Origin: Acidobacteriota bacterium
GTDB taxonomy: Bacteria; Acidobacteriota; Thermoanaerobaculia; Gp7-AA8
Assembly (NCBI GenBank): GCA_016184115.1
Contig: JACPDH010000066.1
Span: 1-64,000 of the forward strand
Direction: 5' to 3'
Length of the DNA stretch: 64,000 bases
The stretch's first letter is position 1. The number at the start of each line of letters is the position of its first letter. Below the pieces are notes generated by a model. The model saw only the letters and a program-made list of their open reading frames with translations, did not search any database and was not told where the DNA came from. Positions 4,397 through 37,455 of this stretch are shown here, piece by piece. Both the position numbers and the translations under genes were made by a program.

Positions 4397-7243
4397 TTAC
4401 ACCATCACCGGCTTCTCTTCGACCATCCTCTTGAGCACGGTCGCGAGCAGGTCGGTGTGCTCGCGCTCTTCGGCCTCGAGCTCGCGATAGAGCTTCCACT
4501 CGCGCGACCCAACAGGGAACTGCCGGCCGGCATCGAGGAAGAAGGCCCTCGCGCGCTTCTCGAGGTGCACCGCAAGACGGAGGAGCTCGGCGCCGGAGTA
4601 CTCCGCAAGCGTTTCACCAGCGAAGACCGCAACCTGCGCCGGCGTCAGGTTCATGTTGAGCGGCTCGTCGGGCAGGTCGATGTGATACCGCCGCGCGAGC
4701 GTGATCATGTGCTCCTTCTCCATTTCGGAGAGGTCGCGGAAGAGGTCGGCGAGCTCCGGATCCTTCGCCTCGACTTCCTTCGCGCCGCGCGCATAGAACG
4801 AAAGTCCGCCTAATTCGATCTCGAGCGCCTGACGTACCGCTTCGACGGTCGCCTCGCTTCCGATGAGCGACTCGTGCCCCCTCGACAGGTGTCCGCCGCA
4901 ATGAGGGCAGAGTCCATACGGAAACGCAAACCCTTCCGAGACTTTCTGGCAGCTGTCACAGGTCCAGATCAGCAGATCGCCGCCGCAGCAGATGTGCTCG
5001 TCGTCGTCCCCCGCCTCGAACGGTCGTCTGCACTTCGGGCAGGCAGCCTCAACCGAGGACGCCGCCGCTTCGACAGGCGCCACTTCATCGTCGAGAACCA
5101 CGGGCCACTCGCGCGTTTTGAGGTACTTCTCCATCGCGCGCGCCGCCCGACGCCCGGCGCCTAACGCCAGGATGACCGTTGCGCCGCCCGTTACGATGTC
5201 GCCGCCGGCAAAGACGCCCGGGAGCGACGTCGCCTGCGTCTTGCCGTCAGCATTGATGTAGCCCTCGCCGCGCACCGAGAGATCGGGCGTCGAGCGGGAG
5301 ATCACGGGATTCGCCCGCGTGCCAAGCGCATAAATTACAGTCTCGCACTCGAATGTCTCAAAGGCTCCTTCGATCGGGACGGGACGGCGGCGCCCCGACT
5401 TGTCAGGCTCGCCGAGCTCCATCTTCTGCACGACGAGCGCGGTGACGTTCCCCTTTTCGTCGGTCTTGATCTCCGTGGGACTCATCAGCCAGTTGAAGTG
5501 GATTCCCTCTTCCTTCGCGTGACGCAGCTCCTCGATCCTGCACGGCGCTTCGGATTCGGTTCTGCGGTAGACACAGTGGACCTCTTCGGCCCCCAGGCGG
5601 CGCGAGACGCGGAGGCAATCCATCGCGGTGTTGCCCGCACCGAGCACGACGACCCTCTTGCCTAACGTAACGGGCGTGTCCTCGAACGGGAAATGGTCGC
5701 CGCCCATCAGATTGACGCGCGTCAGGAATTCGTTCGCGCTGTAAACCTGGCGAGCCTGTTCGCCCGGAATCCCGAGGAACGAGGGGAAGCCGGCGCCGGT
5801 GCCGATGAAGACCGCGTCGTACTTCATCTCGCTCATCAGCTGCTGCACCGTGAAGGTCTTGCCGATGACTTTGTTCGTTTCGAACTTCACGCCGAGCTTG
5901 GCGAGCGCGCTGACTTCGCGGTCGATCGTGGTGCGCGGAAGACGAAAAGATGGGATGCCGTAGCGGAGGACGCCGCCAACGACATGGAGCGCCTCGTACA
6001 CCGTGACATCCGCACCATTACGCGCGAGGTCGCCCGCGGCCGCGAGCCCTGCGGGACCGGAGCCAACGATCGCGACGCGACCTAACTGGCCCGCGTTCTC
6101 GGGCGGATGGACGTCGGGTAGCGGCGCATGGTCGCCGACGAAGCGCTCGAGACGGCCGATCGCGACCGGCTCCATCCTGATGAATCGGGGGATGTCGATC
6201 GCCACGGGGCAGCCGGCGATGCAGGTCGGCTTGAGGCACTGGATGCAACGCTCGGCCTCGACCATTGCGTCCGACATCGTGTATCCGAGATTCACTTCCT
6301 CGAAATTGCGCGAGCGCTCCTTCGCGTCGCGCTCGGGCATCTTCACCGCATGCTCAGGGAGCTCTTTGAGTTTCTTGTAGTTTCGTTTCTTCAGCTCGAA
6401 GAGCTGTTCCTCGATCGTGCAGATCTTCTGGAAGTCGTCGTTCGCTTCCTTTTCTTCGCTCTTGAAGCGCTCCTGGCGGTTGAGCAGCTCGGGGAAGTCG
6501 ACCTGGTGACCGTCGAAGTCGGGCCCGTCGACGCAGGCGAACTTCGTGTGTCCGTCGACGGTGACGCGGCATGAGCCGCACATGCCGGTTCCGTCGACCA
6601 TGATCGCATTGAGCGAGACCATCGTCTTCACGCCGAATGGCCTCGTCACGTCGCATGAGGCGCGCATCATCGGCATCGGGCCGATCGCGACGACCATGTC
6701 GGGCTTCTCCTTCTCGAGTACCTCCTTGAGTGCGGAGGTGACGAAGCCGGGCTTGCCGTACGAGCCGTCGTCGGTGCAGACGATCAGGTCGTCGCAGTAT
6801 TGGCGGAAGCGCTCCTCCCAGAAGACGAGCTCTTTGGTGCGGAAGCCGATGATGCCTGTCGTGCGGCAGCCCGCTTCCTTGAATGCGCGGAGCTGCGGAA
6901 AGATCGGAGCAACTCCCAGACCTCCGCCGACGACGACGACATGGCCGACGTTGCCGATATGGCTCTCGAGACCAAGAGGCCCGACAAAGTCGGCGAACGA
7001 GTCGCCTTCTTTGAAATCGCGCATCATCTCCTTCGTCGTCTTGCCGAGTGCCTGAACGACGACGGTGACGGTGCCCCACTCGCGATCGTAATCGGCGACC
7101 GTCAGAGGGATGCGCTCGCCCCCTTCGCGGAGGCGCAGCATGACGAAATGGCCCGGCTTCGCAGCGTTCGCGACATCGGGGGCGTGGACGTCCCAGAGGA
7201 AGGTGACATCGGAAAACTGCTCACGTTTGACGATCTGGTACAC
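4397..7243 (-). CDS. NfnA-NfnB-type flavoprotein fused to zinc-ribbon and ferritin-like domains
   Basis: A 948-residue fusion. Residues ~1-250 are a sulfide dehydrogenase/DHODH electron-transfer subunit (SudB/NfnA-like) with FAD/NAD segments and a 2Fe-2S motif DGTGMCGSC...FACVDGP. Residues ~330-730 are a SudA/NfnB/GltD-like NADPH oxidoreductase with 4Fe-4S cysteines CIQCLKPTCIAGCP, GSGPAG and GAGNTAMD nucleotide-binding loops. Residues ~735-790 hold Cys pairs (CPKC, CDSC, CPHCGG). Residues ~795-945 form a rubrerythrin-like four-helix domain with EIE, EMEKEH and EAEEREH iron-ligand candidates. The start is GTG at 7243, preceded by GAGGAG six bases upstream; longer readings lack an RBS. NfnAB relatives couple NADH, NADPH and ferredoxin. 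The appended ferritin-like module suggests peroxide or oxygen reduction fed by the same flavins (inference). Confidence 0.88.
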   Translation of the reverse strand: MYQIVKREQFSDVTFLWDVHAPDVANAAKPGHFVMLRLREGGERIPLTVADYDREWGTVTVVVQALGKTTKEMMRDFKEGDSFADFVGPLGLESHIGNVGHVVVVGGGLGVAPIFPQLRAFKEAGCRTTGIIGFRTKELVFWEERFRQYCDDLIVCTDDGSYGKPGFVTSALKEVLEKEKPDMVVAIGPMPMMRASCDVTRPFGVKTMVSLNAIMVDGTGMCGSCRVTVDGHTKFACVDGPDFDGHQVDFPELLNRQERFKSEEKEANDDFQKICTIEEQLFELKKRNYKKLKELPEHAVKMPERDAKERSRNFEEVNLGYTMSDAMVEAERCIQCLKPTCIAGCPVAIDIPRFIRMEPVAIGRLERFVGDHAPLPDVHPPENAGQLGRVAIVGSGPAGLAAAGDLARNGADVTVYEALHVVGGVLRYGIPSFRLPRTTIDREVSALAKLGVKFETNKVIGKTFTVQQLMSEMKYDAVFIGTGAGFPSFLGIPGEQARQVYSANEFLTRVNLMGGDHFPFEDTPVTLGKRVVVLGAGNTAMDCLRVSRRLGAEEVHCVYRRTESEAPCRIEELRHAKEEGIHFNWLMSPTEIKTDEKGNVTALVVQKMELGEPDKSGRRRPVPIEGAFETFECETVIYALGTRANPVISRSTPDLSVRGEGYINADGKTQATSLPGVFAGGDIVTGGATVILALGAGRRAARAMEKYLKTREWPVVLDDEVAPVEAAASSVEAACPKCRRPFEAGDDDEHICCGGDLLIWTCDSCQKVSEGFAFPYGLCPHCGGHLSRGHESLIGSEATVEAVRQALEIELGGLSFYARGAKEVEAKDPELADLFRDLSEMEKEHMITLARRYHIDLPDEPLNMNLTPAQVAVFAGETLAEYSGAELLRLAVHLEKRARAFFLDAGRQFPVGSREWKLYRELEAEEREHTDLLATVLKRMVEEKPVMV

Positions 7244-7497
7244 GGTTTTCTCCTCGGAGGGTGCGTTGGGCAGGGCGATCGCGGCAGGGGCCGGATCGCT
7301 CGCTGACAGACTGCCGTGCAGGGCAGACTTCAGGCCGTGACGCGCGTCACGCGCAGGTGAGACGGGGACCATGTGACGCAGGCGATACGGCGATCGGGCG
7401 ATGCGCAGGCATGCGCGGCCCCGATGCGCACCGCCTTTCGCCTCCTCTCTGCTACGATGCCTTCTCCCCGGTACCGAGAGTAGGAAGGAACGTTCGC

Positions 7498-7860: not shown

Positions 7861-7984
7861 TGCGGCCGAGCTCGGTCGCCTCTCCCTGGCAGTGACGAAC
7901 GCACACCGCGAAGGAGGCAGAGACGTTGCGCGTGAGGGGCATTCGGACCGACACTATCGTCATCCCGACAATTGAGGTGCCGTG

Positions 7985-10900
7985 ATGCGTCCAGGCTCGT
8001 GGAGAACCGTCGCCCTAGTCTCCCTTCTGCTCCATGCCGGCGCGGCGCTCGCCGCGATCCCCGCGTCGGAGCGCGCGGTGCTCGTGACGCTCTACGACAC
8101 GACGCAGGGACCGTTCTGGACACGCAACGCGGGGTGGAAAGGAGCTCCAGGAACCGAGTGCTCGTGGTACGGCGTGCAGTGCGACACGGGCGGGACGACC
8201 GTCACGCGGCTCGATCTCGACTACAACCTCGTGGGCGGGCCGATCCCGGCGTCGATCTCGGGCCTGCCTAACCTCGAGGCGCTCAACCTCACGGCGAATC
8301 CCCTCACCGGATCGCTCCCGATCCAGGTCACGCAGCTCACGAAGCTGCGCGAGCTCCGTCTCGGGCAGTTCTACGGCAATCCGCTCGGCGGAACGATTCC
8401 TCCGCAGATCGCGAACCTTACGAACCTCGAAGTGCTCGACCTGTCGGGCAACGCGCTCACCGGGACGCTGCCACCCTCGGTCGCCGCGCTTCCGAAGCTC
8501 CGGCTCCTCTCGCTCTGGTTCAACGACCTCGGCGGACCGATCCCCCCTGCGCTTTTCGATCACCAGCTCATCGAGTATGTCGATCTCTCGTACAACGACT
8601 TCACGGGCGGCATCCCGCCGTCGCCCTCGATGCCGGCGCTCACCGACCTCGTCCTCGTGCGCTGCGGCCTCTCGGGCCCGCTCCCCTCGTCGTTCGCGGG
8701 GATGCCGAACGTCGCGCGCATCAGCCTCAACGAAAACGAGCTCTCCGGGGCGATCCCGGCGGCGTTAGGCCAGATCGCGACGCTCGAATACCTCGACCTC
8801 TACGGGAACGAGCTCACCGGAAGCGTCCCCTCGGAGCTCGGGAACCTCTCGAACCTCACCCACCTCGAGCTCGGCTACAACCCGATCACCGGGCCGATCC
8901 CCGCTGCGATCGGCAACCTGAAGAAACTAACCTACTTCTCGACCTATGGCTCGACGCTGAGCGGCCCGGTGCCGACCGCGCTCTTCACGCTGACCGAGCT
9001 CGAGGATCTCTACCTCACCGGCAACGTCTACAACGGCCAGTCGAGCACGAAGCTGAGTGGCCAGCTCGCCGACTTCACGAGCCTCCGGAAGCTCCGCAAC
9101 CTCAGAATCGAGGCGCAGGACTTCACCGGCCCGATCCCCCCCGCGATCGCGCTCCTCACCGAGCTCGAGACGTTCAACGCGGGGTACAACCCGCTCGGCG
9201 GAAGCATCCCCGCCGAATTTGGTCAGCTCTCGAAGCTGAAGGGATTCGACCTCCGCGCGACGGGGCTCTCGGGGCCCGTTCCGGAATCGTTCGGACAGCT
9301 CGCGGCGCTCGAAGGGTTTTCCCTCGCCAACAACGAGCTCACCTCGCTGCCTGCGAGCTTCGCTTCGCTGAAGGTTCTCGAAGGGTTCTCCTTCGAAGAC
9401 AACCTCCTCGACGGGCCGATCCCGGCGGCGCTCGCGCAGCTCCCCCTGCTCGAGTACGTCGAGCTGCGCGACAACCTCTTTTCCGGGCCGATTCCGCCGG
9501 AGCTCTTCAACCTCGCGAACCTCGAGTTTCTCGACCTCGAGAACAACCTGCTCGACGGCGCGATACCGCCGCTCGCCGGGCTCGCGAAGATCACGGAACT
9601 GCGCCTCGGAGGAAACCGCCTCACGGGCCCAATACCCGCCGACCTCGCGCAGAGCACGTCTCTAGTCATCCTTCGGTTAGGCGGCAACGAGCTTTCCGGC
9701 CCGATCCCGCCACTCGGTACCCTTCCCAACCTCGTCGAGATCGAGCTCGATCGGAACGACCTCTCCGGCGCCATCCCTTCGCTCACCGGCCTCGCATCGC
9801 TTCGCGAGCTCCGCCTCGACCACAACCGCCTCACCGGTGCCATCCCGCCGTCGATCGGGACTCTGACTCAGCTCGACGAGGCGTCGCTCTCCCACAACGC
9901 GCTTTCGGGGCAGATCCCGGCGGAGATCGCGAACTGCACGCTCATCGCCGACGGTTACCTCAGCCTCGGCCACAACGCGCTCTACAACCTCGATGGCTCG
10001 ATCGGCCCTTTCCTCGCGCGCGTCGCACCAGGCTTTGCGGCCACGCAGACCGTCGCGCCGGCGAACGCGCGCGTCACCGCCGCGCGCGAACGCTCGCTCG
10101 TCGTGAGCTGGGATCCGATCGCCTACACCGCGGACAACGGCGGCTACGTGATCTCGGTGTCGCCGTCGTCCGGCGGGCCGTTCCAGGCGGCGGTGACGAC
10201 CCCCGACAAGCTCACGTCGACCTTCACGCTCGACGGCCTCGCGCCCTCGACCGACTACTTCATCCGTGTCGCGACGGCGACCTACCCGACGCCCGAAAAC
10301 AAGAACACCGTCGTCAGCGACGCCGGGCCCGTCATCGCGGCTCGAACTACATCGGGAGCTCCGGCGCCGGCGAGCGTCGTCGTCGTCGGCATTGGAAACG
10401 GCATCTACCAGGACGCCGAGGTCGCCGGTGGAAGCGACTCGTACACTCTCGCAAACGTCGGCGACGTCGCGACGACGATCACGCTCGCACAGGAGGGAGA
10501 TTTCTTCAGCCAGAGCCCGACGTCGTTCGCGCTCGCGGGAGGTTCCGTGCAGACGGTCGAGCTCACCGGCGTCGCGCGTGCGGCCGGCGCATACAACGGC
10601 GCGTCGATTCCGTCGGGCGAAGGCGTGCCTGCCGGGCTCCGCGTTCCCGTGAGGCTTCTCTCGACCGTGCCGGTCATCGGCACGGTGAGCGCCGTCCCGA
10701 GCACGAACCGCGTCGACGTGGCGGCGGAGCCCGAGACGACCTCGCTCCCGGCGTCGGTGAGCTTCACGAACACCGGCACAGGAACGCTCACCGGGCTCGT
10801 CGCCTCCGAGGCGCCCTGGATCACGCCGCCGCAGGGCGTCGTGACGATCGCGCCGGGACAGTCCGTCCAGGTCGACTTCACGGTCGACCGGACGCGGCGC

Positions 10901-11983
10901 GCCGATGCGAGCGAGCTCGCGGGGGCGGCGATCAGTTCGCTCTCGCTCGTCTACCCCACCGGCTCGTCTCAGGCAGGACGCACGACGCACGAAGGCGGCA
11001 CAGCAACCGGCACGAGCCTCGTGACCGTCGTCGACACCGTGAAGCCTCCGACCACGAGCACCGCGTTCCCGCCGCTGCAGCCGGGCGAGGTGCCGCTCTT
11101 CCTTCCCGGCGTCGGTCACGTCCTCGGCGGCGTCGGGCTCTTCCTCTCCGACCTCTCGATCATCAACGCGTTCGGCACCGGTGCGTTAGGCGACGTCCGG
11201 ATCTACTACACGCCGGCGCTCGGCTACCCTCTCACGAACGCCGTCACGAACGCGAACGCGATCAGCCCAGGGCAGTCGTTCGCGCTCGCCGACGTCGTGA
11301 AGAACGTCTTCGGCGCGGAGCAAGTCGGCACGCTCCAGATCCGCTCGCTCGGCTGGAGCAATCTCGTCCTGAATTCGAACATCTTCAACGTGACGAGCCC
11401 GCGCGGCACCTTTGGATCGTCGATACCGTCGTTCCGCGCCGACCGCTCGATCCAACCGGGCTCGAGCCTTCTGATCAACGGACTGAAGAAAGACGCGACG
11501 ACGCGAACCAACGTCTTCATTCAGGAAACGAGCGGCAACATGGCGAACGCCGATCTCGTCTTTTACGACGCCGAGGGGCACGTCGTGCCTTCGGCGGTGT
11601 CTGCGGCCGAGGTCCCTTCGTTCCAGCTCGCACGCCTCATCGACGCGGTACCTGCAGGCGCCGTGAGCGCGAAGATCACGAACCGATCGGGCTCGAGCGG
11701 GCGCCTAACCGCATACGCGACGCCGGTCGACCAGACGAGCGGGGATTTCTGGAGCCTCGCCGACTGGGATCGTGTCTACGCCACGCTGCAAGGCGAGACC
11801 AAAGTGATTCCCGTCGCCGGAAAAGTGCGCGGCGCACTACGCGGGCGGCCAATCGAGCGCAAACGCGACCATCGACCTCGCTCCGAACGAAACGCGTGTG
11901 CTCGAAGACGTGGTCGGCACACTTTTTCCATCACTCCCCGACTCGGTCGTCGGTTATCTCGTGCTCGAGCCGGCGAGCGGTAG
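7985..11983 (+). CDS. Secreted plant-type LRR protein with beta-sandwich domains, 5' part of frameshifted gene
   Basis: 1332 codons in this frame. After a signal peptide (VALVSLLLHAGAALA) comes a cap with CSWYGVQC, like the LRRNT cap of plant receptor kinases. Roughly 26 repeats of the plant-specific form LxxLxxLDLxxNxLxGxIPxx run to residue ~680. Then follow an FN3-like domain (~700-800, VVSWDPIAYTADNGGYVIS), two beta-sandwich segments (the second BACON-like: VSFTNTGTGTLTGLVASEAPWI) and a C-terminal beta domain (FLPGVGHVLGGVGLFLSDLS). Reading frame is lost near 11830 after VIPVAGKVRGA; homologous sequence continues one frame over. ATG 7985 has GAGGTG six bases upstream. It probably binds ligands or surfaces outside the cell. 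Confidence 0.85.
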   Translation: MRPGSWRTVALVSLLLHAGAALAAIPASERAVLVTLYDTTQGPFWTRNAGWKGAPGTECSWYGVQCDTGGTTVTRLDLDYNLVGGPIPASISGLPNLEALNLTANPLTGSLPIQVTQLTKLRELRLGQFYGNPLGGTIPPQIANLTNLEVLDLSGNALTGTLPPSVAALPKLRLLSLWFNDLGGPIPPALFDHQLIEYVDLSYNDFTGGIPPSPSMPALTDLVLVRCGLSGPLPSSFAGMPNVARISLNENELSGAIPAALGQIATLEYLDLYGNELTGSVPSELGNLSNLTHLELGYNPITGPIPAAIGNLKKLTYFSTYGSTLSGPVPTALFTLTELEDLYLTGNVYNGQSSTKLSGQLADFTSLRKLRNLRIEAQDFTGPIPPAIALLTELETFNAGYNPLGGSIPAEFGQLSKLKGFDLRATGLSGPVPESFGQLAALEGFSLANNELTSLPASFASLKVLEGFSFEDNLLDGPIPAALAQLPLLEYVELRDNLFSGPIPPELFNLANLEFLDLENNLLDGAIPPLAGLAKITELRLGGNRLTGPIPADLAQSTSLVILRLGGNELSGPIPPLGTLPNLVEIELDRNDLSGAIPSLTGLASLRELRLDHNRLTGAIPPSIGTLTQLDEASLSHNALSGQIPAEIANCTLIADGYLSLGHNALYNLDGSIGPFLARVAPGFAATQTVAPANARVTAARERSLVVSWDPIAYTADNGGYVISVSPSSGGPFQAAVTTPDKLTSTFTLDGLAPSTDYFIRVATATYPTPENKNTVVSDAGPVIAARTTSGAPAPASVVVVGIGNGIYQDAEVAGGSDSYTLANVGDVATTITLAQEGDFFSQSPTSFALAGGSVQTVELTGVARAAGAYNGASIPSGEGVPAGLRVPVRLLSTVPVIGTVSAVPSTNRVDVAAEPETTSLPASVSFTNTGTGTLTGLVASEAPWITPPQGVVTIAPGQSVQVDFTVDRTRRADASELAGAAISSLSLVYPTGSSQAGRTTHEGGTATGTSLVTVVDTVKPPTTSTAFPPLQPGEVPLFLPGVGHVLGGVGLFLSDLSIINAFGTGALGDVRIYYTPALGYPLTNAVTNANAISPGQSFALADVVKNVFGAEQVGTLQIRSLGWSNLVLNSNIFNVTSPRGTFGSSIPSFRADRSIQPGSSLLINGLKKDATTRTNVFIQETSGNMANADLVFYDAEGHVVPSAVSAAEVPSFQLARLIDAVPAGAVSAKITNRSGSSGRLTAYATPVDQTSGDFWSLADWDRVYATLQGETKVIPVAGKVRGALRGRPIERKRDHRPRSERNACARRRGRHTFSITPRLGRRLSRARAGER

Positions 11984-12461
11984 CGTTGCCGTGACGAGCA
12001 GGACGTACGCCACCCAGGATGGAGTTCCGGGAACCTACGGCACCGCGGTTCCGACACTTCCACTCTCGCGAACGATCCGGCTGGGACAGTCGAAGACGAT
12101 CGCCGGCCTCGACGTCGCTTCGGCGAAAACGATCGGCGCAAAGACCCCCGCGACATTTCGGACGAATCTGTTTCTCGTCGAAGCAAGCGGGGCCTCGGCG
12201 AAAGTACGCATCAACGTGGTCTACGCAGACAGGAGCCAGGCAGCGTTCGGCTCCCGGCTCATCACGAAGATGCTCGACCTCGCGCCTAATCAGATCTACC
12301 AGACCAACCTGACGCAGCTCATCGCCGAGACGAACCCGAACGTCGATGACTTACGAAATGTGCAGCTCGAGCTCCGTGTCGTCGACGGCAGCGGCGCGGT
12401 CTTTGCGTTCACCTCGTCGATCGACAATGGATCGGCCGACCAGATACTGAGGACGGAGTAG
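11898..12461 (+). CDS. C-terminal continuation of the LRR protein (other frame)
   Basis: This frame is open and protein-like from about 11833. It reads AHYAGGQSSANATIDLAPNE directly after the shift, then NETRVLEDVVGTLFPSLPDS, and ends in FAFTSSIDNGSADQILRTE. It repeats the type of beta domain found at ~11110-11700, so the intact protein would have two such domains and about 1490 residues. One extra base (or two lost) near 11830 explains the break. It could be a sequencing or assembly indel, a true mutation, or, less likely, programmed frameshifting; no slippery heptamer is evident beyond GGAAAAG. The ATG at 11898 is unlikely to be a real start. Confidence 0.78.
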   Translation: MLEDVVGTLFPSLPDSVVGYLVLEPASGSVAVTSRTYATQDGVPGTYGTAVPTLPLSRTIRLGQSKTIAGLDVASAKTIGAKTPATFRTNLFLVEASGASAKVRINVVYADRSQAAFGSRLITKMLDLAPNQIYQTNLTQLIAETNPNVDDLRNVQLELRVVDGSGAVFAFTSSIDNGSADQILRTE

Positions 12462-33463: not shown

Positions 33464-33944
33464 CGTGTCCTTTGTAACGAGCCGCGGTCAGTATAGCAAA
33501 GGGGCGCTCCGGAGACGGCCGAATTGAGAATGAAGAGTTGAGAGTTGGGAGAGATGTTGCTGCGTTGAGGGGGAAGGGAGCTGCGAGGAGGCGCGGGTCA
33601 CGAACGGCCGGGCGCGGGCGCGTTCACGTTCACGGGAAACGACGCCCCCGGTGAGACCGGTACCCCTTCGCAACACGCGACCCGATCCGACACCGGATCG
33701 CTCCCATCTGCGCCTCGTCGCTTGCCAATCGCGACACCTCCCCCGTGAACGTGAACGCTCCCGCCCCCGCGCCCGGCTTCTCCGGTCCCCGCACCCCAAT
33801 TCGCATTCCGCGTTCCGCATTCACAACACCCCGGGTTCCCTTGTTGTTTTCTACCCCAGAGTCTAGAATCACGACGCCCGCGGTGAGCCCATTCCGCTGC
33901 ATTCCCCGCAGCCCGCGGAGTTGCGACCCCACGAGACGAAAACC
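33464..33944. repeat. zapA-nuoB divergent spacer with inverted repeats
   Basis: A ~480 bp gap without a convincing gene. It holds a heptamer-like run (AGAGTTG AGAGTTG, ~33521-33556), a long inverted repeat whose arms GCCGGGCGCGGGCG...TTCACGGG (33607-33636) and CCCGTGAACGTGAACG... (33742-33777) match except for a 6-base insertion, and a second heptamer run ATTCGC ATTCCGC GTTCCGC ATTCAC (33799-33824). The nuo promoter should lie in its last ~100 bases. Confidence 0.72.
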
Positions 33945-34520
33945 ATGTCCAAGATTGAGCACAACGATTCGATCATCGGCAGAAAGTACGCCGATCTGCC
34001 GGGCCAGGGCGCCGAGAAAGGCGCGATCACGCTCCCGGGCGAGCGCGCGCGCGAACCCGAAGCGGGCGAGGAGAGCATCCTGCTCACCACGCTCGAGACC
34101 GCGATGGGCTGGGTGCGCGGTAATTCGCTATGGCCGATGCCGTTCGGCACCGCCTGCTGCGCGATCGAGATGATGTCAATGCTCGCATCGCACTACGACA
34201 TCGCGCGCTTCGGCGCCGAAGTCGTCCGCTTCTCGCCTCGCCAGGCCGACCTCATGATCGTCGCCGGAACCATCGTCGACAAAATGGGTCCGGTCCTCAA
34301 GAAGATCTATGACCAGATGCCCGAACCGAAGTACGTGCTCGCCATGGGTGCCTGCGCGACCTCGGGTGGCTTTTACCGCGCCTATCACGTCATGCAGGGA
34401 ATCGACGAGATCGTTCCGGTCGATATCTGGGTTCCCGGATGTCCTCCCACACCTGACGGGCTCCTCTACGGCATCTTGAAGCTGAAGGAGAAGATCGAGC
34501 GCGGGGAGATTCGTCGATGA
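33945..34520 (+). CDS. nuoB: NADH-quinone oxidoreductase subunit B
   Basis: 191 residues. N2-cluster cysteines are in [22 protein letters not shown] and [12 protein letters not shown], the complete four-Cys set including the tandem CC. The N-terminal ~45 residues are a charged extension. It overlaps nuoCD by four bases (ATGA). Confidence 0.95.
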
Positions 34521-36292
34521 GCACGCCCACCAGATTCAGCTCCATGCCGTACACCGGCCCCGCGCCGACGAATCGTTCGCCCTACATTCCGAAGGGCGTC
34601 GATGCGATCGACAAGCGTGGCGAAGAGATCGAGGCGAAGATTGCCGCGCCGTACGTCACGTCCGTCCCGGGTCAGGATCTCCCGACCTTCATCGTCGAGC
34701 GCGAGAAGATCGTCGAGGTGCTCCGCAAGCTGAAGGAAGACACCGAGCTTCGCTTCGAGCTCCCGGTCGACCTCTTTGGCGTCGACTATCCGCGCCGGCC
34801 GGAAGGACGCTTCGACGTCGTCTACCAGCTCTACTCGTTCAAGAACAACGAGCGCGTCCGGCTCGTCGTGCACACGGACGAAGACAAGGCTGTGCCGTCG
34901 TCGCTCCCCGTCTTCCAGGGCTTCGACTGGTTCGAGCGTGAAGCGTGGGACATGTACGGCATCAAGTTCGACGGACACTACAATCTCCGCCGGATCCTGA
35001 CGCACGAGATGTTCCAGGGACACGCCCTGCGGAAAGACTACGACCCGGCACAGCGGTGGCTCCTCACCGAAAAAGACGTCGCGAAGATCGTCCCGGTCGT
35101 CGAGCATCACCCTGAAGACTCCGACTTCGAGCAGGTGACGCTCAACCTCGGTCCTTCGCACCCCGCAACTCACGGCACACTTCGAATCGTCGTGACGCTC
35201 GATGGCGAGCGGATCATCGGAGCCGACACCGAGATCGGCTACCTCCACCGCTGCTTCGAGAAGATGTCGGAGACCCACACCTACCAGCAGGTCATCCCGT
35301 TCACCGACAGGCTGAACTACTGCTCGGCGATCATCAACAACGTCGGCTACTGCATGGCGGTCGAGAAACTGCTCGGCATCGAGGCGCCGCCTCGCGCTCA
35401 GTACATCCGACTCGTACTTTCGGAGTTCATGCGCATCGCCGACCATCTGGTCTGCATCGCGACGAACGTGCTCGACATGGGTGCGCTGACGAACTTCTGG
35501 TACCTCTTTCAGCCGCGCGAAGAGATTTATCAGCTCGTCGAAGCGTGCTGCGGCGCGCGACTGCTACCGACCTACACCCGCGTCGGCGGTCTGTCGGTCG
35601 ACGCGCCCGCGAACTTCCTCGACATGGCGAAGACGCTCGTCAAGAAGCTGCCGAAGCACATCGACGACGCGGAAAAGCTGCTCCTTCGCAACCGCATCTT
35701 CCTTCAGCGCGTCGAAGGAGTCGGCGCGATCACGCGCGAGAGCGCAATCAACCACGGCTACACCGGTCCCTGCCTCCGCGCGACAGGAGTCGCGTACGAC
35801 GTGCGCAAGGCACACCCGTACATGGGCTACGAGACGTACGACTTCGACATCCCGGTCGCCGAGGGTGGCGACACGCTCGCGCGAACACTCGTGCGACTCG
35901 AAGAGATGCGGCAGTCGCTTCGAATCCTCCGCCAGGCAATCGACCGAGGACTGCCCGCCGGCCCCGTGATCGTCGACGATCCGTACGTTGCCCTTCCTCC
36001 CAAGGAGAAGGTCTACAACGAGATGGAGTCGCTGATCTACCACTTCAAGCTCATCATGCACGGCATCCAGCCACCGGTCGGAGAGACCTACTTCCAGGTC
36101 GAGGGAGGGAACGGCGAGCTCGGGTTCCACCTCGTCTCGGACGGCTCGAAGAATCCCTACCGCGTCCGGGTGCGTCCCCCCTGCTTCGCGGTCTACCAGG
36201 CGTTCCGCAAAATGATCGTCGGACAGACCATCGCCGACGCCATCGCGACGCTGGGATCGCTCAACATCATCGCGGGAGAGCTCGACCGGTAG
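34517..36292 (+). CDS. nuoCD: Fused NADH-quinone oxidoreductase subunits C and D
   Basis: 591 residues. The C (30 kDa) part covers ~1-190 with [20 protein letters not shown] and [19 protein letters not shown]. The D (49 kDa) part follows from [18 protein letters not shown], with the quinone-site sequence and [20 protein letters not shown], ending [12 protein letters not shown]. Natural nuoC-nuoD fusions are known (E. coli). Co-translated with nuoB. Confidence 0.95.
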
Positions 36293-36321
36293 TCCGCCTC
36301 GGTCGGCGCATTGGAGAAGAC

Positions 36322-36984
36322 ATGGGTGTCATCAAGATCGAGCGCAAAAAGCTGACGTTCCTCGAGCGGATCTACCTTTGGGAGACGGCGAAGGGGATGA
36401 TGGTCACTCTGCGCCATCTCCTCAGGAATCTGTTCAACTACAAAGACCTGCCAATCATCGAGTACCCCGAGGTCAAGCGCATCTACAGCGAGCGCTTCCG
36501 CGGGCGCCACATTCTCACGACGCGCGAGGATGGCACGACGCGATGCGTCGCCTGCTACATGTGCTCGACCGCTTGCCCGGCGGAGTGCATCACGATCGAG
36601 GCCGCCGAAGACGACCGCACGCGCGAGAAGTTTCCGGCGCGCTACGAGATCGACCTGCTCCGCTGCGTCTACTGCGGTTACTGCGTCGACGCCTGCCCCG
36701 AAGATGCGATCTACATGACGCGCGACTACGAGCTCGCGATCGACACACGCGCGCGCTCGGTCGTCGGTCTGCGCGATCTCGTCGTTCCGCCTAACATGCC
36801 GGTCGAGCCGATGGGCTGGCGCCCGTACTACGGCGAAATGCGCAAGGAAGGCACGGCCGGCGGAACGGGACGCGGTCAGGAAATCCGCACCGCCGCGTTC
36901 CCCGACGACAAGGCACCAAACCCCGACCTCTACCAGGGCGACGTCCGCCCCGCGTCGGAGTCGACGCCGGCCAGGGGAGCCTGA
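36322..36984 (+). CDS. nuoI: NADH-quinone oxidoreductase subunit I
   Basis: 220 residues from the ATG at 36322 (GGAGAAGAC upstream). Two 4Fe-4S motifs: CVACYMCSTACPAEC and CVYCGYCVDACPED, feeding electrons to N2 in NuoB. The C-terminal tail after GWRPYYGEMRKE is long and unstructured. Only B, CD and I are clustered here. The membrane subunits (A, H, J-N) and E-F-G are not nearby, so the nuo genes are split across loci. Confidence 0.93.
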   Translation: MGVIKIERKKLTFLERIYLWETAKGMMVTLRHLLRNLFNYKDLPIIEYPEVKRIYSERFRGRHILTTREDGTTRCVACYMCSTACPAECITIEAAEDDRTREKFPARYEIDLLRCVYCGYCVDACPEDAIYMTRDYELAIDTRARSVVGLRDLVVPPNMPVEPMGWRPYYGEMRKEGTAGGTGRGQEIRTAAFPDDKAPNPDLYQGDVRPASESTPARGA

Positions 36985-36993
36985 CATCTCGCA

Positions 36994-37455
36994 ATGAAGC
37001 CGCTGCAGACCACGCCGCGACAGGTTCTGCTCGAGGCCATCCAGTCGGAGGTCGAGAGCAGGGAGATTCTCCTCCAGCTCTCCGAGCGCGCGGCCACCGG
37101 TGACGTGAGAACGAGGCTTCAGGAGCTCGCGGACAAGGAGCTGCTCCACCGCGCGAAACTCGAAAAGAAGTTCCGCGATGAGATCGGAGACGAGCCCCCC
37201 GAACCTGCTCCATTGAAGATATCGATCTCGGACGACCTCGCGCGGCTCGACATGCGTCGCGCGCTCAAGTTCGTTCTCGACCGCGAGCGTGAGGCGGAAG
37301 GGAACTACCGGTTTCTCGCCGAGCGCGTGCCGAACACGGAGCTCGGACACCTCTTCCTCGAGCTGGCAGAGATCGAATGGAAGCACAAGACCGAGATCCA
37401 GCAGGAGTACGACCGCGCCGCGGGCAACCCGGACGATTTTTTCGAGGATCTGTAG
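36994..37455 (+). CDS. Ferritin-like/rubrerythrin-type diiron protein
   Basis: 153 residues, predicted four-helix bundle with ExxH-type ligands: QSEVESREILLQLSERAA, LADKELLHRAKLEKKF, LKFVLDREREAEGNYRFLAE and LAEIEWKHKTEIQQEYD. It lacks a rubredoxin domain. It lies 9 bp after nuoI on the same strand, so it is probably co-transcribed with the complex I genes. It resembles the ferritin-like end of the large fusion at 4.4 kb. Peroxide scavenging near the respiratory chain is a reasonable guess. Confidence 0.82.
   Translation: MKPLQTTPRQVLLEAIQSEVESREILLQLSERAATGDVRTRLQELADKELLHRAKLEKKFRDEIGDEPPEPAPLKISISDDLARLDMRRALKFVLDREREAEGNYRFLAERVPNTELGHLFLELAEIEWKHKTEIQQEYDRAAGNPDDFFEDL

Follow-up and report, generated by a model that had tools for sequence, protein, structure and literature searches.

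A single-chain Nfn-type flavoprotein with a ribbon and ferritin-like diiron module in acidobacteria

Our analysis of a 64,000-nucleotide stretch of an acidobacterial contig (JACPDH010000066.1; we call the whole stretch the window) shows that one gene joins both subunits of an Nfn-type flavoprotein to a cysteine-rich ribbon and a ferritin-like diiron domain, and that the same partners recur in other acidobacteria, fused or as neighbouring genes. The layout is already an NCBIfam entry under a misleading name, and it is a conserved but uncharacterised variant of Nfn that lies outside the four published patterns; what we add is a conserved two-gene form and the absence of a cluster motif from the window copy. 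Judging from the sequences, we see an even chance that the protein uses NAD(P)H to reduce peroxide or O2 at its C-terminal diiron site.

The first-pass annotation had the coordinates of the gene right and left its strand unstated; the gene lies on the minus strand, with the following features.

4397 to 7243, minus strand: whole fusion gene, 948 aa, GTG start at 7243 and stop at 4397-4399
7250 to 7255, minus strand: Shine-Dalgarno-like GAGGAG, read from the sequence, 6 nt ahead of the GTG start
6413 to 7243, minus strand: NfnA-like region (FAD/NAD(H) domain and [2Fe-2S]), with NF004862 at 392.7 bits, 5jca_S at E=9.5e-90 and an ERxPxT motif
6497 to 6610, minus strand: [2Fe-2S] domain with DGTGMCGSCRx10CV, from PF10418 and a regular expression
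6203 to 6250, minus strand: first cluster motif of NfnB, RCIQCLKPTCIAGCPV, retained, from alignment and motif search
6175 to 6176, minus strand: junction of a 43-codon (129-nt) deletion between R356 and M357, where relatives have HLLVRDL..GRVCPQE[ST]QCEIQCILEKK
5108 to 6175, minus strand: NfnB-like FAD and NADP(H) Rossmann domains, with PF07992 and 4ylf_B at E=3.5e-133
4892 to 5041, minus strand: ribbon of eight cysteines (CPKC, CC, CDSC, CPHC), 8/8 invariant across 16 modules
4421 to 4855, minus strand: ferritin-like four-helix domain, from PF02915 (36.4 bits on the module), a model with pLDDT 75 and PDB matches
4814 to 4816 (E), 4709 to 4720 (ExxH), 4559 to 4561 (E) and 4457 to 4468 (ExxH), minus strand: predicted diiron ligands, invariant in the 16 modules

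That NfnA, NfnB, a Cys module and a ferritin-like domain form one chain, as had been proposed from the letters alone, is borne out by a single open reading frame along which a Pfam search returns DHODB_Fe-S_bind, Fer4_20, Pyr_redox_2 and Rubrerythrin in that order, and which the NCBIfam model NF009413 spans from end to end. Relatives share the start residue (VYQIVKREQF, or MYQIVKREQF in L035), the nearest solved structures are the Nfn subunits of Thermotoga and Pyrococcus, and dN/dS between the window gene and its relatives is 0.06-0.22. The ERxPxT motif of NfnA reads ERIPLT in the window copy, and the [2Fe-2S] motif, published as the Asp-ligand motif of Nfn (PMC6405883), reads DGTGMCGSCRVTVDGHTKFACV.

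Could a missed stop or an assembly join have made the fusion? The same chain runs without interruption in L037, L010, L033 and L036 (989-991 aa), the intact relatives coming from several Thermoanaerobaculia genomes, and it is present at least in part in 10/10 good-quality genomes of the family we label f5; the fusion is thus far beyond chance, and a missed stop or contig join is ruled out as its origin. Our survey of homologues covered the Acidobacteriota, and within f1, the family to which the window belongs, the sampled genomes with the fusion are confined to genus g1 (G000 and G001). The protein shares 80-84% identity with its closest counterparts in f5, while nuoCD on the same contig groups with f1 (72-79% identity, against about 56% to f5), so the simplest account of the sequences looks to be a transfer into g1 from an f5-like donor, that is, from another Thermoanaerobaculia family. 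A contig misbinned from f5 is ruled out by the f1-like nuoCD and by the sister genome G001, which also carries the fusion. A plasmid search gave no full-length match.

The C-terminal domain had been described as rubrerythrin-like. This is right to the extent that the diiron ligands are retained, in a ferritin-like bundle with E, ExxH, E, ExxH across the 16 modules, and that PF02915 (Rubrerythrin) scores above its cut-off on the module. Rubrerythrins, however, carry a further Glu ligand, spaced three residues beyond the one in helix C (E94/E97 in D. vulgaris); it is absent from the aligned modules, which read LEKRA, MERRT or similar. A C-terminal rubredoxin [Fe(SCys)4] domain is absent as well, the Cys module preceding the bundle. 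Rubredoxin-type Pfam models do not match the Cys module and zinc-ribbon models match it weakly; compared with reverse rubrerythrins, the order with the Cys module first fits, and the CxxC-x13-CxxC spacing is rubrerythrin-like, the same stretch also matching zinc ribbons. The nearest structures to the AlphaFold model of the module are a COG1633 protein (2OH3) and bacterioferritins, in which profile searches concur; the full chain, predicted from 8 sequences, reaches a pLDDT of 47. Because that further Glu and a rubredoxin at the C-terminus are absent and the nearest folds are COG1633 and bacterioferritin, we prefer the label ferritin-like diiron: as predicted from sequence and model, the module is a ferritin/bacterioferritin-like diiron domain and not a strict rubrerythrin.

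Elsewhere in the window, as a case separate from the fusion, NADH chemistry again has a ferritin-like neighbour: at 33921-37455 on the plus strand, nuoB, nuoCD and a nuoI-like gene precede a 153-aa ferritin-like ORF (36994-37455) with E/ExxH motifs; the first-pass annotation had pointed to this protein behind nuoI, and it is indeed present.

A search with the C-terminal module returned nine strong non-fused examples from four other acidobacterial families, and all nine stand directly downstream of a fused NfnA-NfnB gene on the same strand, at gaps of 2-280 nt (below 60 nt in seven). Down to 28% identity, the 16 modules keep eight cysteines (CxxC, CC, CxxC, CxxC) and six diiron ligands (E86, E118xxH121, E171 and E202xxH205 in A2 numbering) invariant, so the loss of diiron ligands that would have undone the initial proposal is not seen. 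Most acidobacterial Nfn lack the module, and the NfnA and NfnB trees alike recover one supported set of 17 rows that contains all 15 module-linked Nfn together with just two that are unlinked (G020 and G145); we looked for a module near the Nfn genes of these two and found none. Fusion and gene neighbourhood together are classical evidence for joint function of Nfn and module, and the sequence comparisons support an order of events in which the pair would have worked together first and fused later. In G145 (L079, 3585-8796, minus strand) downstream of the module-less Nfn pair lie two genes that, judged from the ORFs, resemble a 2-oxoacid:ferredoxin oxidoreductase, which gives a neighbouring Nfn clade another operon partner.

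Exactly 43 residues that every intact relative has (HLLVRDL...GRVCPQETQCEIQCILEKK) are missing from the window copy, which the first-pass annotation had overlooked; the alignment shows a clean in-frame gap, and Fer4_20 matches the window copy over model positions 1-47 of 113 only. The missing segment holds GRVCPQExQCx3C, published as the second cluster motif of NfnB (PMC6405883), and with it three cysteines of the cluster domain are absent. The first motif of NfnB, RCx2Cx4Cx3CPV, and the NfnA motifs are still in place in the window copy, and the intact relatives keep the published Nfn motifs. In the related dihydropyrimidine dehydrogenase both [4Fe-4S] clusters take ligands from both motifs; by this parallel both NfnB clusters would lose ligands, and if the assembly is right the low-potential branch of the window copy should be broken or cut to one cluster.

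Either the window copy is damaged in this branch or it is misassembled, and we regard it as a toss-up whether the gap arose in assembly, the real gene being as intact as its relatives. Every relative with readable sequence at the site keeps the segment, which is among the most conserved stretches of DNA between the species; at this position the orthologue in G024 is interrupted by an NN gap, and the contig of L035 stops inside the segment. Against an error, the window contains no N, the gap is exactly in frame, and the segment was sought elsewhere in the same genome, including the other contigs, and not found. The junction, compared with relatives, has only trivial microhomology, which is uninformative. 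The G024 locus (L013) has NN scaffold gaps in the orthologous gene at locus coordinates 1481-1483 and 2900-2902, one of them at the window-deletion site, the assembly having collapsed at both. Within the window, the neighbouring gene for a leucine-rich-repeat surface protein (ORFs 7982-11983 and 11898-12461, plus strand) seems frameshifted near 11850, its paralogues aligning to about residue 1285 and then in another frame, which suggests either indel errors in the assembly or a decaying gene; this frameshift makes misassembly of the fusion gene plausible.

How would such a protein work? We infer the redox steps, their direction and the substrate as follows. The protein would be a soluble Nfn-type iron-sulfur flavoprotein with the ribbon and ferritin-like diiron module as a C-terminal extension, in which electrons would enter the Nfn part from NADPH at the FAD of NfnB, from NADH at the FAD of NfnA, or from both. 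Relay to the diiron site would run through the [4Fe-4S] clusters and, should the Cys module bind iron, perhaps through that module too; at the diiron site H2O2 or O2 would be reduced to water, and the payoff would be a guard for ferredoxin-dependent metabolism in hosts that respire oxygen as well. A guard role for oxygen-sensitive metabolism makes sense because the carriers tested hold both heme-copper oxidases and POR-family enzymes. The first-pass annotation had spoken of a self-contained path from NAD(P)H to peroxide or O2; the coupling of flavoprotein to diiron module is strongly backed by the nine genomes with the module after nfnAB, but the window copy is without the second [4Fe-4S] motif of NfnB, the domain is not a strict rubrerythrin, and the Cys module may be either an iron-binding electron relay or a zinc-binding structural part, so the idea stands in part. 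A bolder version, which we think very improbable, makes the diiron module of intact members the high-potential acceptor of flavin-based bifurcation, the reduction of peroxide or O2 pushing electrons uphill from NADPH or NADH to ferredoxin; in this version, absence of the [4Fe-4S] motif would have left the window copy as a plain NAD(P)H peroxidase. If bifurcation did take place, detoxification would pay for low-potential electrons.

In its diiron ligands the module resembles bacterioferritin as closely as it does peroxidases. Iron handling is a live competitor to reduction of peroxide or O2. The module could be a ferroxidase or iron-holding unit whose iron is reduced or released by electrons from Nfn, much as the iron of bacterioferritin is reduced and released by NADPH reductases. 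Its ligand set and fold neighbours are bacterioferritin-like, and the modules in operons are weakly similar to the ferritin domain of the iron exporter MbfA; yet we identified no cage-forming features, a 24-mer is hard to picture with a flavoprotein of ~750 residues attached, and the partner is a low-potential NAD(P)H enzyme, all of which makes iron handling unlikely in our judgement.

We are similarly doubtful that the attachment is structural or regulatory, with a zinc ribbon and diiron redox sensor switching off or shielding Nfn under oxygen and no steady electron flow: the eight-Cys ribbon does fit zinc-ribbon models slightly better than rubredoxin, but the retention of all diiron ligands while the module diverges to 28% identity suggests catalysis. 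It is barely credible that the protein is a plain Nfn transhydrogenase that acquired the module by chance gene fusion and shares no function with it. Such an accident would agree with the rarity of the module among acidobacterial Nfn, but not with nine genomes, spread over four other families, in which the module adjoins nfnAB, nor with the way it tracks one Nfn clade.

Among known systems the closest is NF009413/PRK12775 itself, a putative trifunctional ferritin domain-containing protein with the same domain order over the full length of the model (E=0). The window protein scores 1503 bits and the intact L037 1631 bits, both below the curated cut-off of 1895; the window copy is 43 residues short of the family, whose name (polyprenylphenol hydroxylase, glutamate synthase) is at odds with the Nfn motifs. 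The fused Nfn of "Pattern B" (PMC6405883) likewise has NfnA followed by NfnB in one chain, and with NfnAB of Thermotoga maritima and Pyrococcus furiosus (4YLF, 5JCA) it shares ERxPxT, DGTGMCGxCRx10CV and RCx2Cx4Cx3CPV with the fusion. The ribbon and ferritin-like module occurs in none of the four published patterns (PMC6405883), and the window copy, unlike Pattern B and NfnAB, is without the second [4Fe-4S] motif.

Partial parallels come from three other systems. Rub-Bfu (PMC9304861), in which a rubrerythrin is encoded downstream of a BfuBC predicted to bifurcate, also ties an NADH-linked flavoprotein to a rubrerythrin-type protein by gene order, though the flavoprotein family is unrelated and the subunits are separate. 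Ferriperoxin of Hydrogenobacter thermophilus is a rubrerythrin-like peroxidase that depends on NADPH and FNR (PMC3317640), so that an NADPH flavoenzyme feeds a diiron ferritin-like peroxidase as proposed here, but with two proteins, another reductase and no Cys ribbon. The flavodiiron-rubredoxin-NROR fusion FDPF of Trichomonas (PMC9364112) resembles the proposal in running from NADH to O2 within one chain that ends in a diiron site, and differs in its unrelated domains, a flavodiiron (beta-lactamase fold) and a rubredoxin. We searched the literature for PRK12775 and for fusions of Nfn with rubrerythrin and found no paper describing the layout.

Nfn serves as a model in the study of electron bifurcation and is, in anaerobes, normally tied to ferredoxin. 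The missing cluster motif of the window copy, if real, would be a natural deletion in an Nfn. More generally, a family that has been catalogued and misnamed gains a concrete, testable enzyme candidate, and the conserved pairing of Nfn with a diiron protein, fused or adjacent, in acidobacteria with heme-copper oxidases suggests a recurrent link of Nfn to peroxide or oxygen chemistry.
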